Source: Acholeplasmatales bacterium
Lineage (GTDB): Bacteria; Bacillota_I; Bacilli_A; Acholeplasmatales; Anaeroplasmataceae
Direction: 5' to 3'
Assembly (NCBI GenBank): GCA_016288855.1
Contig: JAEELJ010000036.1
Location: forward strand, 1-49,985
Length of the DNA: 49,985 nucleotides
Below the pieces are notes generated by a model. That model saw only the letters and a list, made by a program, of their open reading frames with translations. It did no database searches and was not told where the DNA came from. A program made the position numbers and the translations under genes. This document shows, in pieces, positions 38,450-49,504 of this stretch (position 1 is the stretch's first letter; every line of letters starts with the position of its first letter).

Positions 38450-39319
38450 TTAGATATTAAATGAATCATCTGTTTTAAGGATAGGAGTATATAAATCTAC
38501 TCTTCTATCTCTAAATACACCCCAAGAATATCTCTTTTTTCTTATTACATCTAAATCAAATTCATATGAAATAAAGCCTTCAGTTACTCTATCCATTTCC
38601 TTAATCTTAGTTCCTTCTTCATTTGCTATAAATGATGAACCAAAGAATGTCATAGATGAATCGCCTTCAACCTCAGTACCAATTCTATTTGATGCAATAA
38701 CTGGCATAATGTTTGCGGCAGCATGACCACACATTGTATTTTGCCAATGATCCTTTGAATCCTTAGGTAATACAGGTTCAGTACCTATTGCAGTTGGGAA
38801 GAATAATAATTCTGCTCCCTTTAATGCTAAAATTCTAGCTGTTTCAGGGAACCATTGATCCCAACAAATTCCACATCCTACATGACCAAACTTTGTATTA
38901 AATACCTTAAATCCTGTATCACCAGGTGTGAAATAGAACTTTTCTTCATAGCATTCACCTGTTGGAATATGGCTTTTTCTATATAATCCTAGGATTTTTC
39001 CATCAGCATCAATCATTGCTAAAGAATTATAGAAATTATTGCCACTTCTTTCAAAGAAAGAAATAGGTAAAACAACATTATATTTCTTAGCCATTTCTTG
39101 GAAATGGGCTAAATATTTATTATTCTTATATTCTGTTGCTAATTCGAAATATTCATATTTTTCCTTTTGACAAAAATATGGTGTTAAGAATAATTCTTGT
39201 AATAAAACAATATTTACACCATCTTTAGCACAATTTTCAATCATTGAATCTGCTTTTTTAATATTAGATTCAATATCCCATGAAATAGACATTTGAGTTG
39301 CAGCTACTTTTACCTTCAT
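38450..39319 (-). CDS. aguB: N-carbamoylputrescine amidase
   Basis: A 289-residue nitrilase-family enzyme. The catalytic triad is Glu42 (LLQELFLTPYF), Lys115 (YRKSHIP) and Cys152 (GICWDQW), with the AguB-type sequence HVGCGICWDQWFPE. It hydrolyses N-carbamoylputrescine to putrescine, CO2 and ammonia. The start is the ATG one base after the aguA stop in GGTGAATAATATG; an in-frame GTG (39328) is part of that ribosome site. Last gene of the speA-aguA-aguB operon. Confidence 0.93.
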   Translation of the reverse strand: MKVKVAATQMSISWDIESNIKKADSMIENCAKDGVNIVLLQELFLTPYFCQKEKYEYFELATEYKNNKYLAHFQEMAKKYNVVLPISFFERSGNNFYNSLAMIDADGKILGLYRKSHIPTGECYEEKFYFTPGDTGFKVFNTKFGHVGCGICWDQWFPETARILALKGAELLFFPTAIGTEPVLPKDSKDHWQNTMCGHAAANIMPVIASNRIGTEVEGDSSMTFFGSSFIANEEGTKIKEMDRVTEGFISYEFDLDVIRKKRYSWGVFRDRRVDLYTPILKTDDSFNI

Positions 39320-39320
39320 A

Positions 39321-40397
39321 TTATTCACCTCTACCTATTTGCATTGTAACACAATGGATATTACCACCTGCTACTAAAATCTTTCTTGATTCAATTTGAT
39401 GAATCTTTTTCTTACCTTTATAGAAATTATTTAAAACATCATATGCTTCATTATCTTCTTCTACATTAAATTTTGGAAGAATAATAAAATCCTTACCCAT
39501 ATAGAAATTAACATATGAGCCTGCTAATCTATCTCCTTCAAGTCTAGGCTTAGCATTACCATCTAAAACAATAGAATTTGCTTCTTCCTTTGTTAATGCT
39601 AAATATGGATTAGGGCAATTTACCAAAATTACATTTAAATTATTATCCTCTAATACCTTTTTTGCTTCCATACTCCACTTATATTGAATATCATTTTTAT
39701 CCTTAGATGTTGCAAGTAATACTGTATTTTCATCTAAGAAGCATGCCATATTATCAACATGCTCATTAGTTTCATCATTATAAATTCCATGAGGAAGCCA
39801 TATTACCTTGTTCATTCCAAGCATATTCTTTAAATGTTCTTCAATTTCTTCTTTAGTTAGGTTTATGTTTCTTCCCTTAGATAATAAGCATGCCTCAGTT
39901 GTTAATAATACACCTTTACCATTAGAATGAATTGAACCACCTTCTAAGATAAAATCCTTATCACTATAGTATTCAACATTTAATAATTGAGCTAATTGTG
40001 ATCCTAGCTTATCATCATTTTCCCAAGATGAATAAAGTCCATCGAAATTACCACCCCAGGCATTAAATCCAAAATCTACACATCTTAATTTTCCTTCTTT
40101 ATTTCTTAAGAAAATTAATGTATTATCTCTTGCCCAAGAATCATCATATTCTAAATTATGAACTGATACATTTTTCTTATTATTTAAAATACTTGTATCA
40201 TATTTAACATTCTTACTTTTAATAACATATACATGCTCATATAAAGAAATTGCATCAATGATATTTAAAAATTCACTAAATGCTTTTAAACCTCCATCTT
40301 CCCATGTATCAATTCTATATGGAAGTAAAATTATAGTACCATCATGCATATTTCCTTCAAATGGTAACGTGTATAAATCATTTAATGGATTAGTCAT
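39321..40397 (-). CDS. aguA: Agmatine deiminase
   Basis: A 358-residue guanidino-modifying enzyme: YDDSWARDNTLIF, WGGNFDGL, the His/Glu-bearing LPHGIYNDETNEHVDN and the catalytic Cys in GGNIHC near the C-terminus. It converts agmatine to N-carbamoylputrescine. The ATG at 40397 overlaps the speA stop by 8 bp and has GGAGGA; an in-frame ATG at 40415 is upstream of the ribosome site. Context with speA and aguB confirms the role. Confidence 0.94.
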   Translation of the reverse strand: MTNPLNDLYTLPFEGNMHDGTIILLPYRIDTWEDGGLKAFSEFLNIIDAISLYEHVYVIKSKNVKYDTSILNNKKNVSVHNLEYDDSWARDNTLIFLRNKEGKLRCVDFGFNAWGGNFDGLYSSWENDDKLGSQLAQLLNVEYYSDKDFILEGGSIHSNGKGVLLTTEACLLSKGRNINLTKEEIEEHLKNMLGMNKVIWLPHGIYNDETNEHVDNMACFLDENTVLLATSKDKNDIQYKWSMEAKKVLEDNNLNVILVNCPNPYLALTKEEANSIVLDGNAKPRLEGDRLAGSYVNFYMGKDFIILPKFNVEEDNEAYDVLNNFYKGKKKIHQIESRKILVAGGNIHCVTMQIGRGE

Positions 40398-41883
40398 CAA
40401 ATCTATCCTCCACATTCTCTCTATTTTCTAAATATTGATCATAATCAACAACAGATACAGTAAGATCATCATAATCCATTAATACAGTCGCATTTGTCTT
40501 CTTATATTGCTTAATACGATCAATAATATTTTGATCAAAGACTTCACCTGGAATAATTAGAGGGATTCCTGGTGGATATATCATAATAGATTCCTTTGAT
40601 ATTAAACCAATTGCATCATCAAGCTTAACTCTTAATACAGGGGCCTGATAAGCTACACGTGGTCTCATAACCATTTTTGGGAATGGTGAATCATAATAAT
40701 ATTTAGGGTATGTTCTCTTTTCTACGTAATATTTATTTGAAATATCCTTTAAAGCATTTATTAAATTATCTAAATGCTCCTTTTTTGTACCTATTGCAAG
40801 TATCGCAAGTACAACATATTGCTCAGCTAATTCCATCTGAACATTATATTCATCCTTAAGTATATTATATAACTCAAATCCATTAATTGTTAATGATTCA
40901 AGTTCAATAACTAATTTAGTACAATCATATGCATAAGAGCCTTGATTAATGAAGTATTCTCTTCCTCTAGCCTTAAAGCCTGGTATTTCATTAATTCTTG
41001 CTCTTGCATCATTACCCATATTAATAACTTCTTCTAATCTTTTTTCACCATTATGATATAAATAATGTCTTGCAGATTCAAGTGATGCAATTAGTAAATT
41101 AGAAGGTGAAGTTGTATTAATAACCATTAATGCTTTAAAAACATCATAATGAGTTACTCTATTACCCTTTCTTAATAAAACTGAAGCTTGTGTTAAAGCA
41201 CCACCAGTTTTATGCATTGAAACTGCAGATAAATCAAAATCTGCATCCATTGCAGCGATAGGTAATCTGTCATGGAAGCCTAAATGTGCACCATGTGCCT
41301 CATCAGCAAGGGCTATCATACCTCTCTTATGAGCTTCTTCAGCTAATCTAACCATATCATTTGTTGCTCCAAAATATGTTGGATTAATTACAAAAATAGC
41401 TTTAGCATTTGGATGGCTATCCATTTTTTCAATATAATCTTCAACAGTTGGTTGATTTGATATTTCAAGATTTCTATCAAATTCAGGCATAACAAACACA
41501 GGAATTGCACCTGATAAAATAAGTGCATTAATTACTGACTTATGACAATTTCTAGGTAAAATAATTTCTTCATGAGCCTTAACACTAGCTAAAATCATTG
41601 CAATAATACCTGAAGATGTACCATTTATTAAAAAGAATGCTTCATCTGCATGATAGCAATCAGCCATTATCATTTGAGATTCTTGAATTACACCATTAGG
41701 ATGATTTAGATTATCAAGTCCTCTTGGAGCATTAACATCACACATATATGTTAGCTCTCCAACATAATCCTTGAATAAATTATCTACATTTCCCATATGA
41801 TGTCCTGGAACATCAAATGGTGATACTTTTTCATCAATATACTTCTTTAATGCATCTAAAAAAGGTGTTCTATCTTGATCCAT
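40390..41883 (-). CDS. speA: Arginine decarboxylase (Orn/Lys/Arg decarboxylase, fold I)
   Basis: A 497-residue PLP enzyme of the aspartate-aminotransferase fold, as in Bacillus SpeA: TPFLDALKKY, DVPGHHMG, the PLP Asp in LADEAHGAHLGFH and the Schiff-base Lys in SMHKTGG. The family also includes lysine and ornithine decarboxylases; the following aguA and aguB genes point to arginine, giving agmatine. The ATG at 41883 has GAGGG upstream; an in-frame TTG at 41898 is less likely. Confidence 0.9.
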   Translation of the reverse strand: MDQDRTPFLDALKKYIDEKVSPFDVPGHHMGNVDNLFKDYVGELTYMCDVNAPRGLDNLNHPNGVIQESQMIMADCYHADEAFFLINGTSSGIIAMILASVKAHEEIILPRNCHKSVINALILSGAIPVFVMPEFDRNLEISNQPTVEDYIEKMDSHPNAKAIFVINPTYFGATNDMVRLAEEAHKRGMIALADEAHGAHLGFHDRLPIAAMDADFDLSAVSMHKTGGALTQASVLLRKGNRVTHYDVFKALMVINTTSPSNLLIASLESARHYLYHNGEKRLEEVINMGNDARARINEIPGFKARGREYFINQGSYAYDCTKLVIELESLTINGFELYNILKDEYNVQMELAEQYVVLAILAIGTKKEHLDNLINALKDISNKYYVEKRTYPKYYYDSPFPKMVMRPRVAYQAPVLRVKLDDAIGLISKESIMIYPPGIPLIIPGEVFDQNIIDRIKQYKKTNATVLMDYDDLTVSVVDYDQYLENRENVEDRFDD

Positions 41884-41923
41884 TCTAAACCCTCGCAAAT
41901 ACTATTATTTTAAAAACAAATTA

Positions 41924-44018: not shown

Positions 44019-44495
44019 TTACTGTTCATTAACTAGCTTCCCAGACATATGCTCTATTTTTAAACATAGCAATTGAGTTCTATTAATAGCGCTATTTATT
44101 TCTTTTTCAATAGCTTCAGTATCATTCGTAAATTTATAAGATAATTTTCTACAAATATCTTTCACCTTTTCTATATCAGAAACAAATTCAATAGTCCCAA
44201 AGATAATAACACTTCTTACATCATATGACCAATGATCTATTCTTTTAGTTCCTTTTTCAAAAACACAATAACTAACCTTATTACAATTTTTTAAAGAATC
44301 AATTTTATGTCCTTCCTTTGCACCATGAAAATAAATCAAATTATCTTTTTCATCATAATAATGATTAATTGGTAATCCATATGGATATCCATCATCACCT
44401 AATAAAGATAATACTCCTCTTTTCTCATTAATTAATAATTCTATACATTCATCCCTAGATATTTCTTGCTTAAATCTTCTCATTTTTCTAAACAT
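44019..44495 (-). CDS. Nim-like flavoprotein (pyridoxamine 5'-phosphate oxidase family)
   Basis: A 158-residue FMN-binding split-barrel protein: MFRKMRR at the start, RGVLSLLGDDGYPYGLPINHYYDEKDNLIYFHGAKEGHKIDSL and KVSYCVF match NimA/NimB-type nitroimidazole-resistance proteins and their housekeeping relatives. The likely role is flavin-dependent reduction of small molecules. It is 16 bp after a GNAT gene. Confidence 0.87.
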   Translation of the reverse strand: MFRKMRRFKQEISRDECIELLINEKRGVLSLLGDDGYPYGLPINHYYDEKDNLIYFHGAKEGHKIDSLKNCNKVSYCVFEKGTKRIDHWSYDVRSVIIFGTIEFVSDIEKVKDICRKLSYKFTNDTEAIEKEINSAINRTQLLCLKIEHMSGKLVNEQ

Positions 44496-44511
44496 AATTA
44501 TTATCCATTCC

Positions 44512-45303
44512 TTAATTAATTCTTATAGAACATAGCTTACCTTGAAGCTTATATCCTATTTTTTCATAGCACTTATTTGATGCAATATAAAAAGCATCAG
44601 TATAAAGCATAGGCGTATATCCTAATTCTTTTGCAATCATTGTAACCTCATATACTAGCTTTTCTGCATAATGCATTCTTCTATATTCTTTTTTAGTATA
44701 TACTAAAGAAATAGATGCTAAATTACCATTAGGTACATATCTTGCAGATGCAACAAATATACCATTTTCATTTTTAAATAAATATGTGTTCTTTTGTTTA
44801 ATAAATTCCTCTGCATCCTTTGAATAATCATCCTTTTTATCTAATCCAAGCTCAGTATGGAACAATTCTAAGATATTAACTATTTCATTTATATCTTCTT
44901 CTAAGCATAAATGAATACTACCTGGTACATCATTTTTTGGTTTAATTGGATTGATACAATCATAAGCAAACATATTTATTGAAATTTTAATATCTATATT
45001 ATCTTCTTTTGCCCTATTAATAAAATATTCATATAATTCATATTTTATATTAAAGCTATATTTATTATTCAATAAACCTTTTTCTTTTATTAAATTATAA
45101 ATATAATCCTTCTTATCATTAGATATATTATCCTTTGTCCAAATCCAAATAGGATATGGGCTTTCGGTAAAGCAAATTATTATATCCTCATGATTAGATA
45201 ATAATAAATTACATTTTCCACCCATTACTCTTTTTAAAACAAAGAAGGTATATTTATCTTTTTCTAATAATTTATAATCTTTTTCATTAACAAAATTATC
45301 CAT
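44512..45303 (-). CDS. GNAT acetyltransferase with extended N-terminal domain
   Basis: A 263-residue protein with a variable N-terminal half (about 1-125) and a C-terminal GNAT domain: FVASARYVPNGNLASISLVYTKKEYRRMHYAEKLVYEV (acetyl-CoA loop partly degenerate: RRMHYA) and LYTDAFYIASNKCYEKIGYKLQGKL. The acceptor substrate is unknown. First gene of a two-gene unit with the Nim-like protein. Confidence 0.82.
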   Translation of the reverse strand: MDNFVNEKDYKLLEKDKYTFFVLKRVMGGKCNLLLSNHEDIIICFTESPYPIWIWTKDNISNDKKDYIYNLIKEKGLLNNKYSFNIKYELYEYFINRAKEDNIDIKISINMFAYDCINPIKPKNDVPGSIHLCLEEDINEIVNILELFHTELGLDKKDDYSKDAEEFIKQKNTYLFKNENGIFVASARYVPNGNLASISLVYTKKEYRRMHYAEKLVYEVTMIAKELGYTPMLYTDAFYIASNKCYEKIGYKLQGKLCSIRIN

Positions 45304-45446
45304 TTTAACCCCCTACCAATCTTAAATAAATTGTATACTTTATCTATTTCACCATTATCTGATTCAAAATGTTTTTAATAAATGTTATTCCATTTTTATA
45401 GCTTTTTAAGATGAAATATTATTTATATTATCTGATAAAACCATCC

Positions 45447-45515
45447 TTAGGAATCTAAATAATCAAGATTCATTTCTCTTATTATTAATTCTTTAGCTTC
45501 TAATATAATTTTCAT
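45447..45515 (-). pseudogene. Remnant of a RimJ/RimL-type acetyltransferase N-terminus
   Basis: A 22-codon frame MKIILEAKELIIREMNLDYL followed by two residues and a TAA has the exact look of the first residues of RimJ-like GNATs (xxRLIIREMxxxDxDxL). Downstream to 45330 the minus strand shows out-of-frame fragments (for example MVLSDNINNISS) broken by stops. It lies 7 bp after the next GNAT gene, without a ribosome site. I read it as a decayed gene. Confidence 0.5.
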
Positions 45516-45522
45516 AATTGTA

Positions 45523-46173
45523 TTATAAATCCATTCTAAAACTAAAATTTTCAACAGTTCTATTTTTATATTTTAGATTTTCTTCTTTGATGAGAGAAAA
45601 ACCATTTTTAATATAAAAATCAACATTATGTTTCGCATTAGTCGTAACAGTGATAAGATTACCGTTTTTTTCTTTAACAAAAGGTATTAAAAAATTCTTT
45701 ATGGCATCAGAACCAACACCTTCGCACTGATGATTTGGTTCAACTACTAAAAAATAAAGATGCCAACGTGGCTCTTTAATGCTTTTTACAACAATTTCTG
45801 TCTCATCAGAAAGCTTAAGAAACTTTAAAGCATTAAATAATCCTAGCTTTAATATAGGTTTTATGCCTCCACATAAGACATAATCCAAAAATCCTACAGG
45901 CCTATCAGTAGGAGCATCAATAATAATAAAATCAATGACTTTTCCATCATTTATACCAATATAACATTCATTCTTTCTGATTGTTGCTTTAAATAAAGAC
46001 TTCATAAAACTATCATAAAAACTATGGTATCTTTTTTCTGTTTTAAAATCATTCTTAACAATCTCAAAAAGAGGATAATGTTCAAAGGCTTTAATAAATA
46101 TATTTATTACTTCTTGTTCATAGGATGTATTATATTTCTTATATTCAATTGAATTCATTATATTATTTTTCAT
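45523..46173 (-). CDS. GNAT acetyltransferase
   Basis: A 216-residue GNAT protein: HLYFLVVEPNHQCEGVGSDAIKNFLIPF carries the beta4 strand and acetyl-CoA loop (Q-x-x-G-V-G), and ITVTTNAKHNVDFYIKNGFSLIKEE the C-terminal strand-helix. The N-terminal half (EVINIFIKAFEHYPLFEIV) resembles other AF-x-x-(D/Y)P GNATs. The substrate is unknown. CGGTGA precedes the ATG. Confidence 0.85.
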   Translation of the reverse strand: MKNNIMNSIEYKKYNTSYEQEVINIFIKAFEHYPLFEIVKNDFKTEKRYHSFYDSFMKSLFKATIRKNECYIGINDGKVIDFIIIDAPTDRPVGFLDYVLCGGIKPILKLGLFNALKFLKLSDETEIVVKSIKEPRWHLYFLVVEPNHQCEGVGSDAIKNFLIPFVKEKNGNLITVTTNAKHNVDFYIKNGFSLIKEENLKYKNRTVENFSFRMDL

Positions 46174-46393: not shown

Positions 46394-47938
46394 TTATCTT
46401 TTGATTTTTCTTGTTGTTGTTTTTTCAAATTCAAAATCTCTATATATGATTTTTGAAATTCTTTTATATGGAGGCATTTGATGATTTAATAAATCTATTT
46501 CTTTATCTATTTTTTTATTACCATCTATATATACTTCAGCAACAATAATATCATTTTCACCTTTTACAACAACTTCTTCTACACCATCAATTTCATATAT
46601 TTTCTTTTCTAATTCCTCAGCAGATATATTTTTACCATTAGATAGAATTATTAAATTTTTAATTCTACCTGTTACAAAAATAAAACCATTTTTATCTTTA
46701 TAGCCAATATCTCCCGTATGGAAATAATCATTTTTTATTGCATCTGATGTTGATTTTTCATCTTTATAATAGCCAAGCATTACACTATCGCCTTTAACAC
46801 AAATTTCACCATCAATTATTTTAACATCAAGACATGAAATTGGCATACCTACTGAATTTTTAATTCTTTTTTTATATCTATTTACGCTAACAATAGGTGA
46901 ACACTCAGTTATTCCATAACCATTGAATACTTTTATACCAATGCTATCAAAAAAATCAATATATTTTTGATCTAAAAATGCTCCACCACATATAATATTT
47001 TCTAGATTTTTACCAATATTAGATGTGATTTTTTTAAAAAATATTTTTCTTAGGTCAATACCAATTTTTCTTAATCTATCACTTAATTTTATTGCGTTAG
47101 TTAATTTATCTAAAGAATTATTTTTCTTTGCAGTTAACCATATATTTTTATATATTGTTTCTAAATATAATGGAACTAATGCTAAACTTCTAGCATTATA
47201 ATATTTTAGTTCCTTTGTAAAATATCTTATCCCTTTAGAAATATAAACAGGACATCCACAAATATATGCACCAATTATATTAACAGACAAAGCGAAAGTA
47301 TGATGAAGTGGCAATGTCAAAACTGAATTTCCCTTTAACCATAAACTAAGGCTTGCATAATAACTATCATAACAAATATTTCTTTCAGATAACATTACTG
47401 CCTTAGGTAAGCCTGTAGTGCCTGATGTAAAAATTATTGCGCAAAGATCATCTATACCTCTTTTATATTCATAATATTCTTTATAATCATATAATAATAT
47501 ATTATCGATTTCATCCATTGATAATATATTTATTTTTAATTCGTTATTTAATTTATTTGCTATATCTTCATATGATTTTGAATAAATTAATAATTCACAT
47601 TCTCCTCTTTTTAATAAATCAGATAAATCTGAAAAAGGAAGATCTTTATCTAATGGAACAATTATATTATCAGAAAAAATAGATGCAAAATAGCTAATAA
47701 TCCAATTATAGCTATTTTCACCTATTAGAGCTATTTTTTTATTATTATAAATTTTACTTAAATAAGTTCCCAGTTTTAATACATCATAATAAAAATCACT
47801 TACACTCTTTTTTATTTCTTTTCCTTCATCACCATATAAATATAAGATATTATCTGGATCATATTTAACTCTTAATTCAAATATACTTTTAAAATTAATA
47901 TCTTTTAATTTTTTATAATGATTCTTTAAATTTTTCAT
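46394..47938 (-). CDS. AMP-dependent synthetase/ligase (acyl-ACP or amino-acid activating)
   Basis: A 514-residue adenylate-forming enzyme: FTSGTTGLPK (170-179), NGYGITECSP, YFHTGDIGYKDKNGFIFVTGRIKNLIILSNGKNI and a C-terminal KTTTRKIKR with the catalytic Lys. The sequence is closer to long-chain acyl-CoA/acyl-ACP synthetases than to amino-acid adenylation domains, but the substrate pocket cannot be decoded by eye. It overlaps the carrier protein gene by 4 bp, so it probably loads an acyl or aminoacyl group onto that carrier. Alternative: DltA-like, not favoured as no dltB/dltD is present. Confidence 0.87.
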   Translation of the reverse strand: MKNLKNHYKKLKDINFKSIFELRVKYDPDNILYLYGDEGKEIKKSVSDFYYDVLKLGTYLSKIYNNKKIALIGENSYNWIISYFASIFSDNIIVPLDKDLPFSDLSDLLKRGECELLIYSKSYEDIANKLNNELKINILSMDEIDNILLYDYKEYYEYKRGIDDLCAIIFTSGTTGLPKAVMLSERNICYDSYYASLSLWLKGNSVLTLPLHHTFALSVNIIGAYICGCPVYISKGIRYFTKELKYYNARSLALVPLYLETIYKNIWLTAKKNNSLDKLTNAIKLSDRLRKIGIDLRKIFFKKITSNIGKNLENIICGGAFLDQKYIDFFDSIGIKVFNGYGITECSPIVSVNRYKKRIKNSVGMPISCLDVKIIDGEICVKGDSVMLGYYKDEKSTSDAIKNDYFHTGDIGYKDKNGFIFVTGRIKNLIILSNGKNISAEELEKKIYEIDGVEEVVVKGENDIIVAEVYIDGNKKIDKEIDLLNHQMPPYKRISKIIYRDFEFEKTTTRKIKR

Positions 47939-48153
47939 CTACATTTTTCTTCCAAATATTTTAATATATCATCTACAGTTAAAAAGTTATATATATCCTT
48001 ATCTTCAATTTTTATATTAAATTCATCTTCAAAATCAGCAACAATAGAAACTATATCAAGTGATGATAAGCCAAGATCTCCAACTAGTGAAGAATCTTCT
48101 TTTATTTCACTTTCCGTATAATTTTCTAATATTTTTTTTACCTTATCAAACAT
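47935..48153 (-). CDS. Acyl/peptidyl carrier protein
   Basis: A 72-residue carrier protein: GDLGLSSLDIVSIVADFEDEF with the phosphopantetheine Ser at residue 31 (SSLD in place of DSLD), acidic helix II and IEDKDIYNFLTVDDILKYLEEK. It follows the condensation-type gene by 1 bp and overlaps the ligase by 4 bp. Needs a phosphopantetheinyl transferase encoded elsewhere. Confidence 0.93.
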   Translation of the reverse strand: MFDKVKKILENYTESEIKEDSSLVGDLGLSSLDIVSIVADFEDEFNIKIEDKDIYNFLTVDDILKYLEEKCR

Positions 48154-48154
48154 T

Positions 48155-49504
48155 TTAATCCTCCACTGTTAAATCCTTAATTAATAATTCATTATTATTA
48201 AGAACCTTATTTATTATATTTGAAATTACATTTAAAATTTTTATTGCCTCAACATCTTTAATTTTTATATTATGATCAAAATACATATTAAAGGTTTTAG
48301 TATTAAAATTCTCTTCTATTGCAAGAGTAACTACATTTCCAAAAGCCATTGGGAAATACTCTTTTATTCTTAAATTAGAATCTGTATTTATAGTTGCGTT
48401 ACGGAAGCTTATATAAAAATCAGTATATAATCCATTTACTTCTTTTGGTTTAACATATCCTCTTACACGTCTTAATAATGATATAGTCTTTTCTTTATTT
48501 AGAACTAAAAAATCTTTAAACGACATTTTACTAGATACTTCTAATAACAATGGTAATTGTAATGCCGCTAGACCAACCATATTTTTTTCAATAAGACCTA
48601 ATCTATTAGCATTAATCATTCCAACATAAAACTTATCATTTTTTATTTTATTATATAGTGCTATACCTATAGCACTAATAAAAAAGACGCTTTCAGATAT
48701 TTGATTCTCTTTACAGTAATTTTTTATTTTATTTGATACTTCTATATCAAATGCAAATTCTTTTCTTTTCCCTTTAAAAGAATAAATCTTACCAGGAAAT
48801 ATAACAGTTTTATTTGGATATTTTAACCATTCGTTTTTAAAATATTCTTTATCTAGAATTCCTCTTTCACTTAATTCATAATTTTTATTATTTTCTATAA
48901 AATAATTATATTCATAAGTTTTAAATTCTTCATTATTTAAAGATTTTAATAATTGGTTTGCGATTAAATACATTGACCAACCATCAGATATTATATGATT
49001 CATTTTTATAAATGCACCACTAGCATTTGGTAATTGGATTAGAATAATGTCAAAGCATGATAATTCATTATCCATTAATCCTAATTTCTTTTTATTTTTT
49101 TTAATACTATTTTGTTGCTTCAAATAATTAAATAATAAAAAAATATTATGTGACTTTTTTTTCTTTATTTTATCTTTTTCATCATCACATACTATCTTAT
49201 AATTTTGAGGAATAGTTGCATAAATCTTTCCAAATTCATCCATTTCTTCAATAGAGTTAAAAAATTTTATTTTAAAATTTCTCTTTTTATATGGTTCAAA
49301 ATCTTGATAAGTTTTTTGATTTTTTTCAATAAAATATGTACGAAGAGTCTTATTTTCTCTTAAAAGATTATTTACTGCAATTTGTAATTCTTCATCACTA
49401 TATTTTTTAAAAAGAACAGCACTACCACATAAGGTTAAACTTTGATTTAATCCTCTTTTATTGACTGAGTGCATAAATAATTGAGCATTATTTAATTCAA
49501 ACAT
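48155..49504 (-). CDS. Stand-alone condensation-domain-like acyltransferase
   Basis: A 449-residue protein of the chloramphenicol-acetyltransferase/condensation-domain superfamily. The active-site motif reads NHIISDGWS: the catalytic second His and the Asp-Gly of HHxxxDGWS are kept, the first His is Asn. The later NxxxxGxxxxQLPL-type stretch (NMVGLAALQLPLLLEV) and VNGLYTDFYISFRN fit the family, which includes NRPS condensation domains, PapA-like and alcohol acyltransferases. The ATG at 49504 is chosen; an in-frame TTG at 49522 is less likely. First gene of the cassette with the carrier protein and ligase. Confidence 0.82.
   Translation of the reverse strand: MFELNNAQLFMHSVNKRGLNQSLTLCGSAVLFKKYSDEELQIAVNNLLRENKTLRTYFIEKNQKTYQDFEPYKKRNFKIKFFNSIEEMDEFGKIYATIPQNYKIVCDDEKDKIKKKKSHNIFLLFNYLKQQNSIKKNKKKLGLMDNELSCFDIILIQLPNASGAFIKMNHIISDGWSMYLIANQLLKSLNNEEFKTYEYNYFIENNKNYELSERGILDKEYFKNEWLKYPNKTVIFPGKIYSFKGKRKEFAFDIEVSNKIKNYCKENQISESVFFISAIGIALYNKIKNDKFYVGMINANRLGLIEKNMVGLAALQLPLLLEVSSKMSFKDFLVLNKEKTISLLRRVRGYVKPKEVNGLYTDFYISFRNATINTDSNLRIKEYFPMAFGNVVTLAIEENFNTKTFNMYFDHNIKIKDVEAIKILNVISNIINKVLNNNELLIKDLTVED

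Follow-up and report, generated by a model that had tools for sequence, protein, structure and literature searches.

A rare three-gene condensation protein, carrier, and ligase cassette of an Acholeplasmatales bacterium as a probable fatty-acyl amide synthase of separate origin

Three adjacent genes of an Acholeplasmatales bacterium probably encode a stand-alone fatty-acyl-ACP:amine N-acyltransferase, which would work as the fatty acid amide (FAA) clusters of gut Clostridia do, would have a separate origin in the initiation step of nonribosomal peptide synthetases (NRPSs), and would belong with relatives at three other loci (L017, L219, and L220) to a rare second lineage. The genes lie in what we call the window, the whole 49,985-nucleotide stretch of contig JAEELJ010000036.1 that was analyzed. 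In the FAA clusters, three free-standing NRPS-like proteins (adenylation, ACP, and condensation) join fatty acids to free amines (PMC13142362). Their discovery is credited to Chang and colleagues (in PMC13142362), their products are lipid signals that act on human GPCRs, and the OaaA/OaaACP/OaaC system of Coprococcus eutactus has been reconstituted in vitro, with OaaC crystallized (PMC13142362). The sequence-only reading of this DNA had placed such parts normally in multidomain NRPSs or, for the ligase and carrier, in dlt operons and had overlooked the FAA clusters, which consist of the same free-standing parts.

The cassette and the hairpin that follows it are laid out as follows.

49504-48155, minus strand: condensation protein P0001, 449 aa (ATG start; motif NHIISDGWS; PF00668, 2.3e-23)
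48153-47935, minus strand: acyl carrier protein P0002, 72 aa (phosphopantetheine site GLSSLD; PF00550, 8.3e-11)
47938-46394, minus strand: adenylate-forming ligase P0003, 514 aa (motif TSGTTGLPK; PF00501, 1.2e-50)
46350-46325, minus strand: weak terminator-like hairpin past the ligase gene (11 pairs, 3 of them G-C; pattern scan)

The gene order is condensation protein (C), ACP, ligase. The stop codon TAA of the C gene is separated by 1 bp from the ATG of the carrier gene, and the carrier and ligase genes share a 4-bp ATGA overlap. The positions, strand, and junctions originally described for the trio were verified, all three motifs are intact, and the Pfam assignments agree with them; with three intact families within one operon, chance is excluded. 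That the operon lies between one promoter and one strong terminator, as had also been claimed, is plausible only, given that promoter-like sites were not enriched (42 observed versus 43.1 in shuffles, with a standard deviation of 7.0) and that the pattern scan returned 1 terminator-like hairpin against 0.5 expected, with 3 G-C pairs. When the neighboring genes were read, no phosphopantetheinyl transferase (PPTase), thioesterase, or exporter was seen adjoining the cassette, which bears out the first description, and a candidate PPTase lies on another contig.

The neighbors of the cassette encode GNATs, a pyridoxamine-oxidase-like protein, and a flavodoxin-like reductase; two GNAT acetyltransferases and the pyridoxamine-oxidase-like protein are encoded directly downstream (44019-46173, minus strand). 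About 4.5 kb from the cassette lies a putrescine-type operon (38450-41898, minus strand) for an Orn/Lys/Arg decarboxylase and for agmatine-deiminase-like and N-carbamoylputrescine-amidase-like proteins. It is a possible amine source for the cassette, with nothing that ties the two. There is a small chance that the contig is chimeric, as the cassette sits close to its end, but groEL and other core genes are present on the same contig.

The profile matches of P0002 were acyl carrier protein models (best, 3.9e-16), with DltC at an E value of 0.057. For P0003, the best curated models were fatty-acyl and succinylbenzoate ligases, and DltA fell outside the best 25. Aligned with amino-acid A domains (an alignment from which DltA was left out), P0003 lacks an Asp at the column that we take to bind the amino group and reads LPLHHTFAL there, like its relatives. 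Its C-terminal segment KTTTRKIKR retains a Lys, presumably the catalytic one. We propose that P0003 is a fatty-acyl-AMP/ACP ligase. Because of the missing Asp and the fatty-acyl and succinylbenzoate character of its best models, amino-acid loading by P0003, D-alanylation included, is unlikely on the strength of its sequence. A DltA/DltC-like role in D-alanylation or the loading of another amino acid, which the combination of a stand-alone ligase and a small carrier in the style of a dlt operon would allow, is therefore an extremely improbable reading of the cassette as a whole: both the family of the ligase and its residue at that column indicate fatty acids, the carrier is far closer to acyl carrier proteins than to DltC, a condensation protein is present, and no DltB-like or DltD-like genes were seen beside the cassette. 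The sequence-only reading had allowed for either an acyl or an amino-acid group; acyl loading followed by transfer to a free acceptor agrees with the relatives and the known analogues, and the absence of the Asp speaks against the amino-acid option.

P0001 falls within the NRPS condensation superfamily by both its PF00668 match (2.3e-23) and its fold. An AlphaFold2 model built from eight sequences (pLDDT, 81; pTM, 0.80) had solved condensation domains as its leading PDB matches (Z, 33-38), headed by the RzmA starter C domain with C8-CoA (Z, 37.9; rmsd, 2.7 over 395 residues), which was tied with several others; the match supports the fold class and leaves the substrate unaddressed. In the motif NHIISDG, the catalytic His (His170) and Asp (Asp174) are retained and the first residue is Asn (HH to NH). 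Asn also occupies this position in several FAA-type C proteins of our own FAA set, and the final Gly recurs at locus L190 and in 17% of the published FAA set (PMC13142362). Upstream of the motif-carrying strands, the N lobe holds an insert of ~45 residues (at ~107-149), modeled as a helix at 121-141 with low confidence at 111-118. In our alignment this insert was common to the C proteins of the window, L017, L219, and L220 and was absent from FAA and starter C domains. P0001 forms a long branch, with ≤30% identity to its nearest relatives. By analogy with the FAA enzymes, we propose that it is an acyl-ACP:amine N-acyltransferase.

For comparison with the FAA clusters, the FAA set was defined by proteins matching the published features and not by the OaaC sequence itself. 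One operon recovered in this way, L137, has the published FAA features, encoding a C protein (motif DHLTMDA), an ACP, and a ligase. A search with the L137 C protein matched 63 of the 397 genomes of its gut family, 9 of them through NRPS-type C domains only, and FAA-type C proteins were thus found in 54. Among 21 loci examined, 18 carried all three genes, in the order C-ACP-ligase in 16 of the 18, which is also the order in the window. The two systems share a discrete ligase, a small ACP, and a stand-alone C protein (~450-470 aa in FAA clusters), without a thioesterase, and the window proteins, at 514, 72, and 449 aa, show the FAA layout of a ligase, an ACP, and a stand-alone C protein of 300-520 aa encoded together. 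The FAA motif (D/H)HxxxD(S/A/G) is represented by NHIISDG with its second His and its Asp conserved and with Asn as the first residue; FAA proteins mostly read DHxxxDA or DHxxxDS, whereas the window form is NHxxxDG. The window cassette differs further: its C protein has the extra ~45-residue N-lobe insert, neither this protein nor the ligase is placed within the FAA clades, and its host belongs to a different group.

In the C tree, the window protein and those of L017, L219, and L220 formed a clade (100/99) nested among starter C domains that make up the N termini of NRPSs and come from operons with ligase and ACP genes as well, while the FAA C proteins formed a separate clade (100/100) without the window protein. 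When the first tree held only two cassette members, an FAA clade including the cassette was not formally rejected (AU p=0.076). Two more cassette members were added after this result and before a second AU test; with the resulting four, constraining the cassette and FAA proteins together cost 50.5 log-likelihood units (AU p=0.036). In the ligase tree, a common clade with the FAA ligases was rejected more firmly (AU p=0.0007, in a test that omits one odd FAA ligase, L189, placed elsewhere in the tree), and P0003 sat with NRPS-associated ligases encoded beside an ACP, outside the FAA-ligase grouping.

The known model for such lipo-initiation ancestry is the daptomycin-type FAAL:ACP:CIII step (PMC9113097). 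Like that step and the gut NRPS loci L018, L019, L020, L024, and L072, the window encodes a stand-alone ligase and a free ACP together with a starter-type C, and both trees show the C domains and ligases of those systems as nearest relatives. In those systems, the C domain forms the N terminus of an NRPS and its acceptor is a carrier-bound amino acid, whereas P0001 is a separate, single-domain protein of 449 aa encoded by the sole PF00668 locus of its genome. Since that genome is rated 100% complete, this single locus leaves no NRPS module to act in trans. On present evidence, the window cassette lies outside the FAA clade by descent, and its function is most likely FAA-like. Its separate source appears, from the present trees, to be the step in which a ligase, an ACP, and a starter C domain initiate lipopeptide NRPSs. 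We lean, by a modest margin, toward regarding the window, L017, L219, and L220 cassettes as a second family of stand-alone fatty-acyl amide synthases that evolved independently, was freed from lipopeptide NRPS initiation, converged with the FAA clusters, and is marked by the insert.

The closest relative, L017, was the best match of a ligase-alignment scan of genome contigs and comes from an Oscillospiraceae metagenome-assembled genome from water-buffalo rumen. Its proteins are 48% (ligase), 30% (C), and 54% (ACP) identical to those of the window, and its genes run ligase-C-ACP, with the gene of a MacB-like ABC transporter immediately behind them. Searching 400 genomes of the L017 family yielded the other two: L219, with an L017-like arrangement including the MacB-like ABC transporter and with a ligase truncated by its short contig, and L220 (3-5830), in which one run encodes a ligase, a C protein, a GH3-family protein (PF03321), an ACP, and a second C protein cut by the contig end. 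L220 thus has the cassette in a richer form. Searches of the 54 other genomes of the window's family, of 160 genomes of its order, of 392 genomes of its phylum, and of the rest of 391 genomes of the L017 class turned up no stand-alone relative. The expectation that the trio stays together as a unit held only in part: the 54 other family members searched lack it, and distant Oscillospiraceae-type genomes have it. The cassette is rare, and its absence from those family members indicates that it was probably acquired laterally. Base composition was dropped as proof of lateral origin, as the cassette has 22.5% GC against 26.8% for the rest, and other stretches of the window are also near 23%.

A single-protein scan of IMG/VR with P0001 gave no match, and a C search of plasmids gave NRPS pieces only. 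The plasmid ligase match L013 was rejected as a trio (a ligase, ACP, and acyltransferase region with no C gene), and two further plasmid ligase matches, L014 and L015, were without annotation. The seemingly stand-alone C open reading frames of L099, L106, L113, L134-L136, and L138-L141 were likewise rejected as trios, being contig-cut, NRPS-type pieces, or without a ligase and ACP. On an IMG/VR contig (L016, 1565-10175), a C-A-T-R-like NRPS, a ligase, an ACP, and a PPTase lie beside two serine-recombinase-like genes, which suggests that lipo-initiated NRPS cassettes travel on mobile elements. In a relative's genome of the class Bacilli (L010, 5459-18526), a single-strand run encodes a PPTase-like protein, an ACP, a ligase, an HD-type response regulator, a histidine kinase, and an NRPS of 2402 aa with two modules and a reductase-like end. 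Eight further loci in Bacilli (L038, L040, L047, L061, L080, L084, L087, and L091) hold, in most cases, a related ligase, an ACP, a PPTase, two GT8 proteins, and PlsC-type acyltransferases, and probably represent a glycolipid cluster that relies on this activation pair too.

An initial search with PF01648 (E, 0.001) suggested that the window genome has no PPTase, a result overturned by a relaxed threshold and a reading of the locus concerned. A 193-aa protein on contig C53 (L196, 1708-2286) carries the Sfp-type signature GIDIE ... WTFEEA ... K and matches PF01648 at 14.6 bits, under Pfam's cutoff; it is likely a divergent Sfp-type PPTase and could act in trans on the window carrier. Its gene has that of a FakA-like fatty-acid kinase on one side and that of a ligase-ACP fusion on the other, and next comes a two-half PlsC-like protein (the ACP and PlsC identities were read from sequence by eye). 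The genome thus holds a second, separate fatty-acid locus, with a FakA-like kinase, a PPTase, a ligase-ACP fusion, and a tandem PlsC-like protein (L196, 1-3501; L201, 1323-4601).

In the mechanism that we propose, a PPTase encoded elsewhere in the genome would convert the carrier into holo-ACP, and the ligase, judging from its family and residues, would adenylate a free fatty acid with ATP and load it onto the ACP. As in the FAA clusters, the C protein would then bind the acyl-ACP thioester together with a small amine that diffuses freely and would form an amide, and amide formation would itself free the product without a thioesterase. This function is favored because the three free-standing parts of the cassette match those of the reconstituted Oaa system (PMC13142362), because the trio recurs in L017 and L219, each with a MacB-like transporter, as well as in L220, where a GH3-type amidosynthetase and a second C protein accompany it, and because the genome has no other PF00668 locus. 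It is further favored by the grouping of P0001 with starter C domains whose operons hold a ligase and ACP, by a ligase that lacks the amino-acid-binding Asp and groups with ACP-linked NRPS ligases, by a fold search that returned condensation domains throughout with the RzmA starter domain first (tied), and by a likely Sfp-type PPTase beside FakA-like and acyltransferase genes. Against it stand the replacement of the first motif His by Asn, the long branch at ≤30% identity, the AU values behind the separate origin (p=0.036, or 0.076 with fewer members, for the C protein and p=0.0007 for the ligase), and the sub-cutoff score of the PPTase.

Condensation-fold enzymes can also make esters, and GH3 proteins conjugate amino acids in plants. 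With the same loading, the acceptor could accordingly be an alcohol, an amino acid, or a lipid head group, and the product an ester or a membrane aminolipid; L017 and L219, the nearest trios, have an ABC transporter that would be compatible with any lipid bound for export, and L220 encodes a GH3-type protein. We consider such an acceptor rather unlikely, since the characterized analogues of this exact three-protein layout yield amides (PMC13142362) and no acceptor-supplying gene adjoins the window cassette.

We give little probability to each of two other readings. If the ligase and ACP served to feed exogenous fatty acids into phospholipid, with the C protein incidental, the arrangement would recall the eight Bacilli loci in which related ligase and ACP pairs adjoin PPTase, GT8 glycosyltransferase, and PlsC-type acyltransferase genes, but no acyltransferase gene adjoins the window cassette, the C protein is encoded within a tight operon and within the trios of L017, L219, and L220, and the genome already has its separate FakA, PPTase, ligase-ACP fusion, and PlsC-like locus. 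If the cassette were what is left of a lipopeptide NRPS cluster, decaying or inactive, this would account for the Asn in place of the first motif His, the long branch, and a genome without a remaining NRPS. Such a remnant is hard to reconcile with three intact open reading frames, tight junctions, and catalytic residues (His, Asp, Ser, and Lys) that are all in place, or with stand-alone trios in other genomes whose gene order has been rearranged.

If the cassette is indeed a fatty-acyl-ACP:amine N-acyltransferase of separate origin, a minimal amide synthase would have arisen more than once, in this case from the starter step of lipopeptide synthesis, and surveys seeded with OaaC would overlook the second lineage. 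The differences in motif and insert would then allow a natural comparison of the ways in which a condensation domain shifts from a carrier-bound to a free acceptor.
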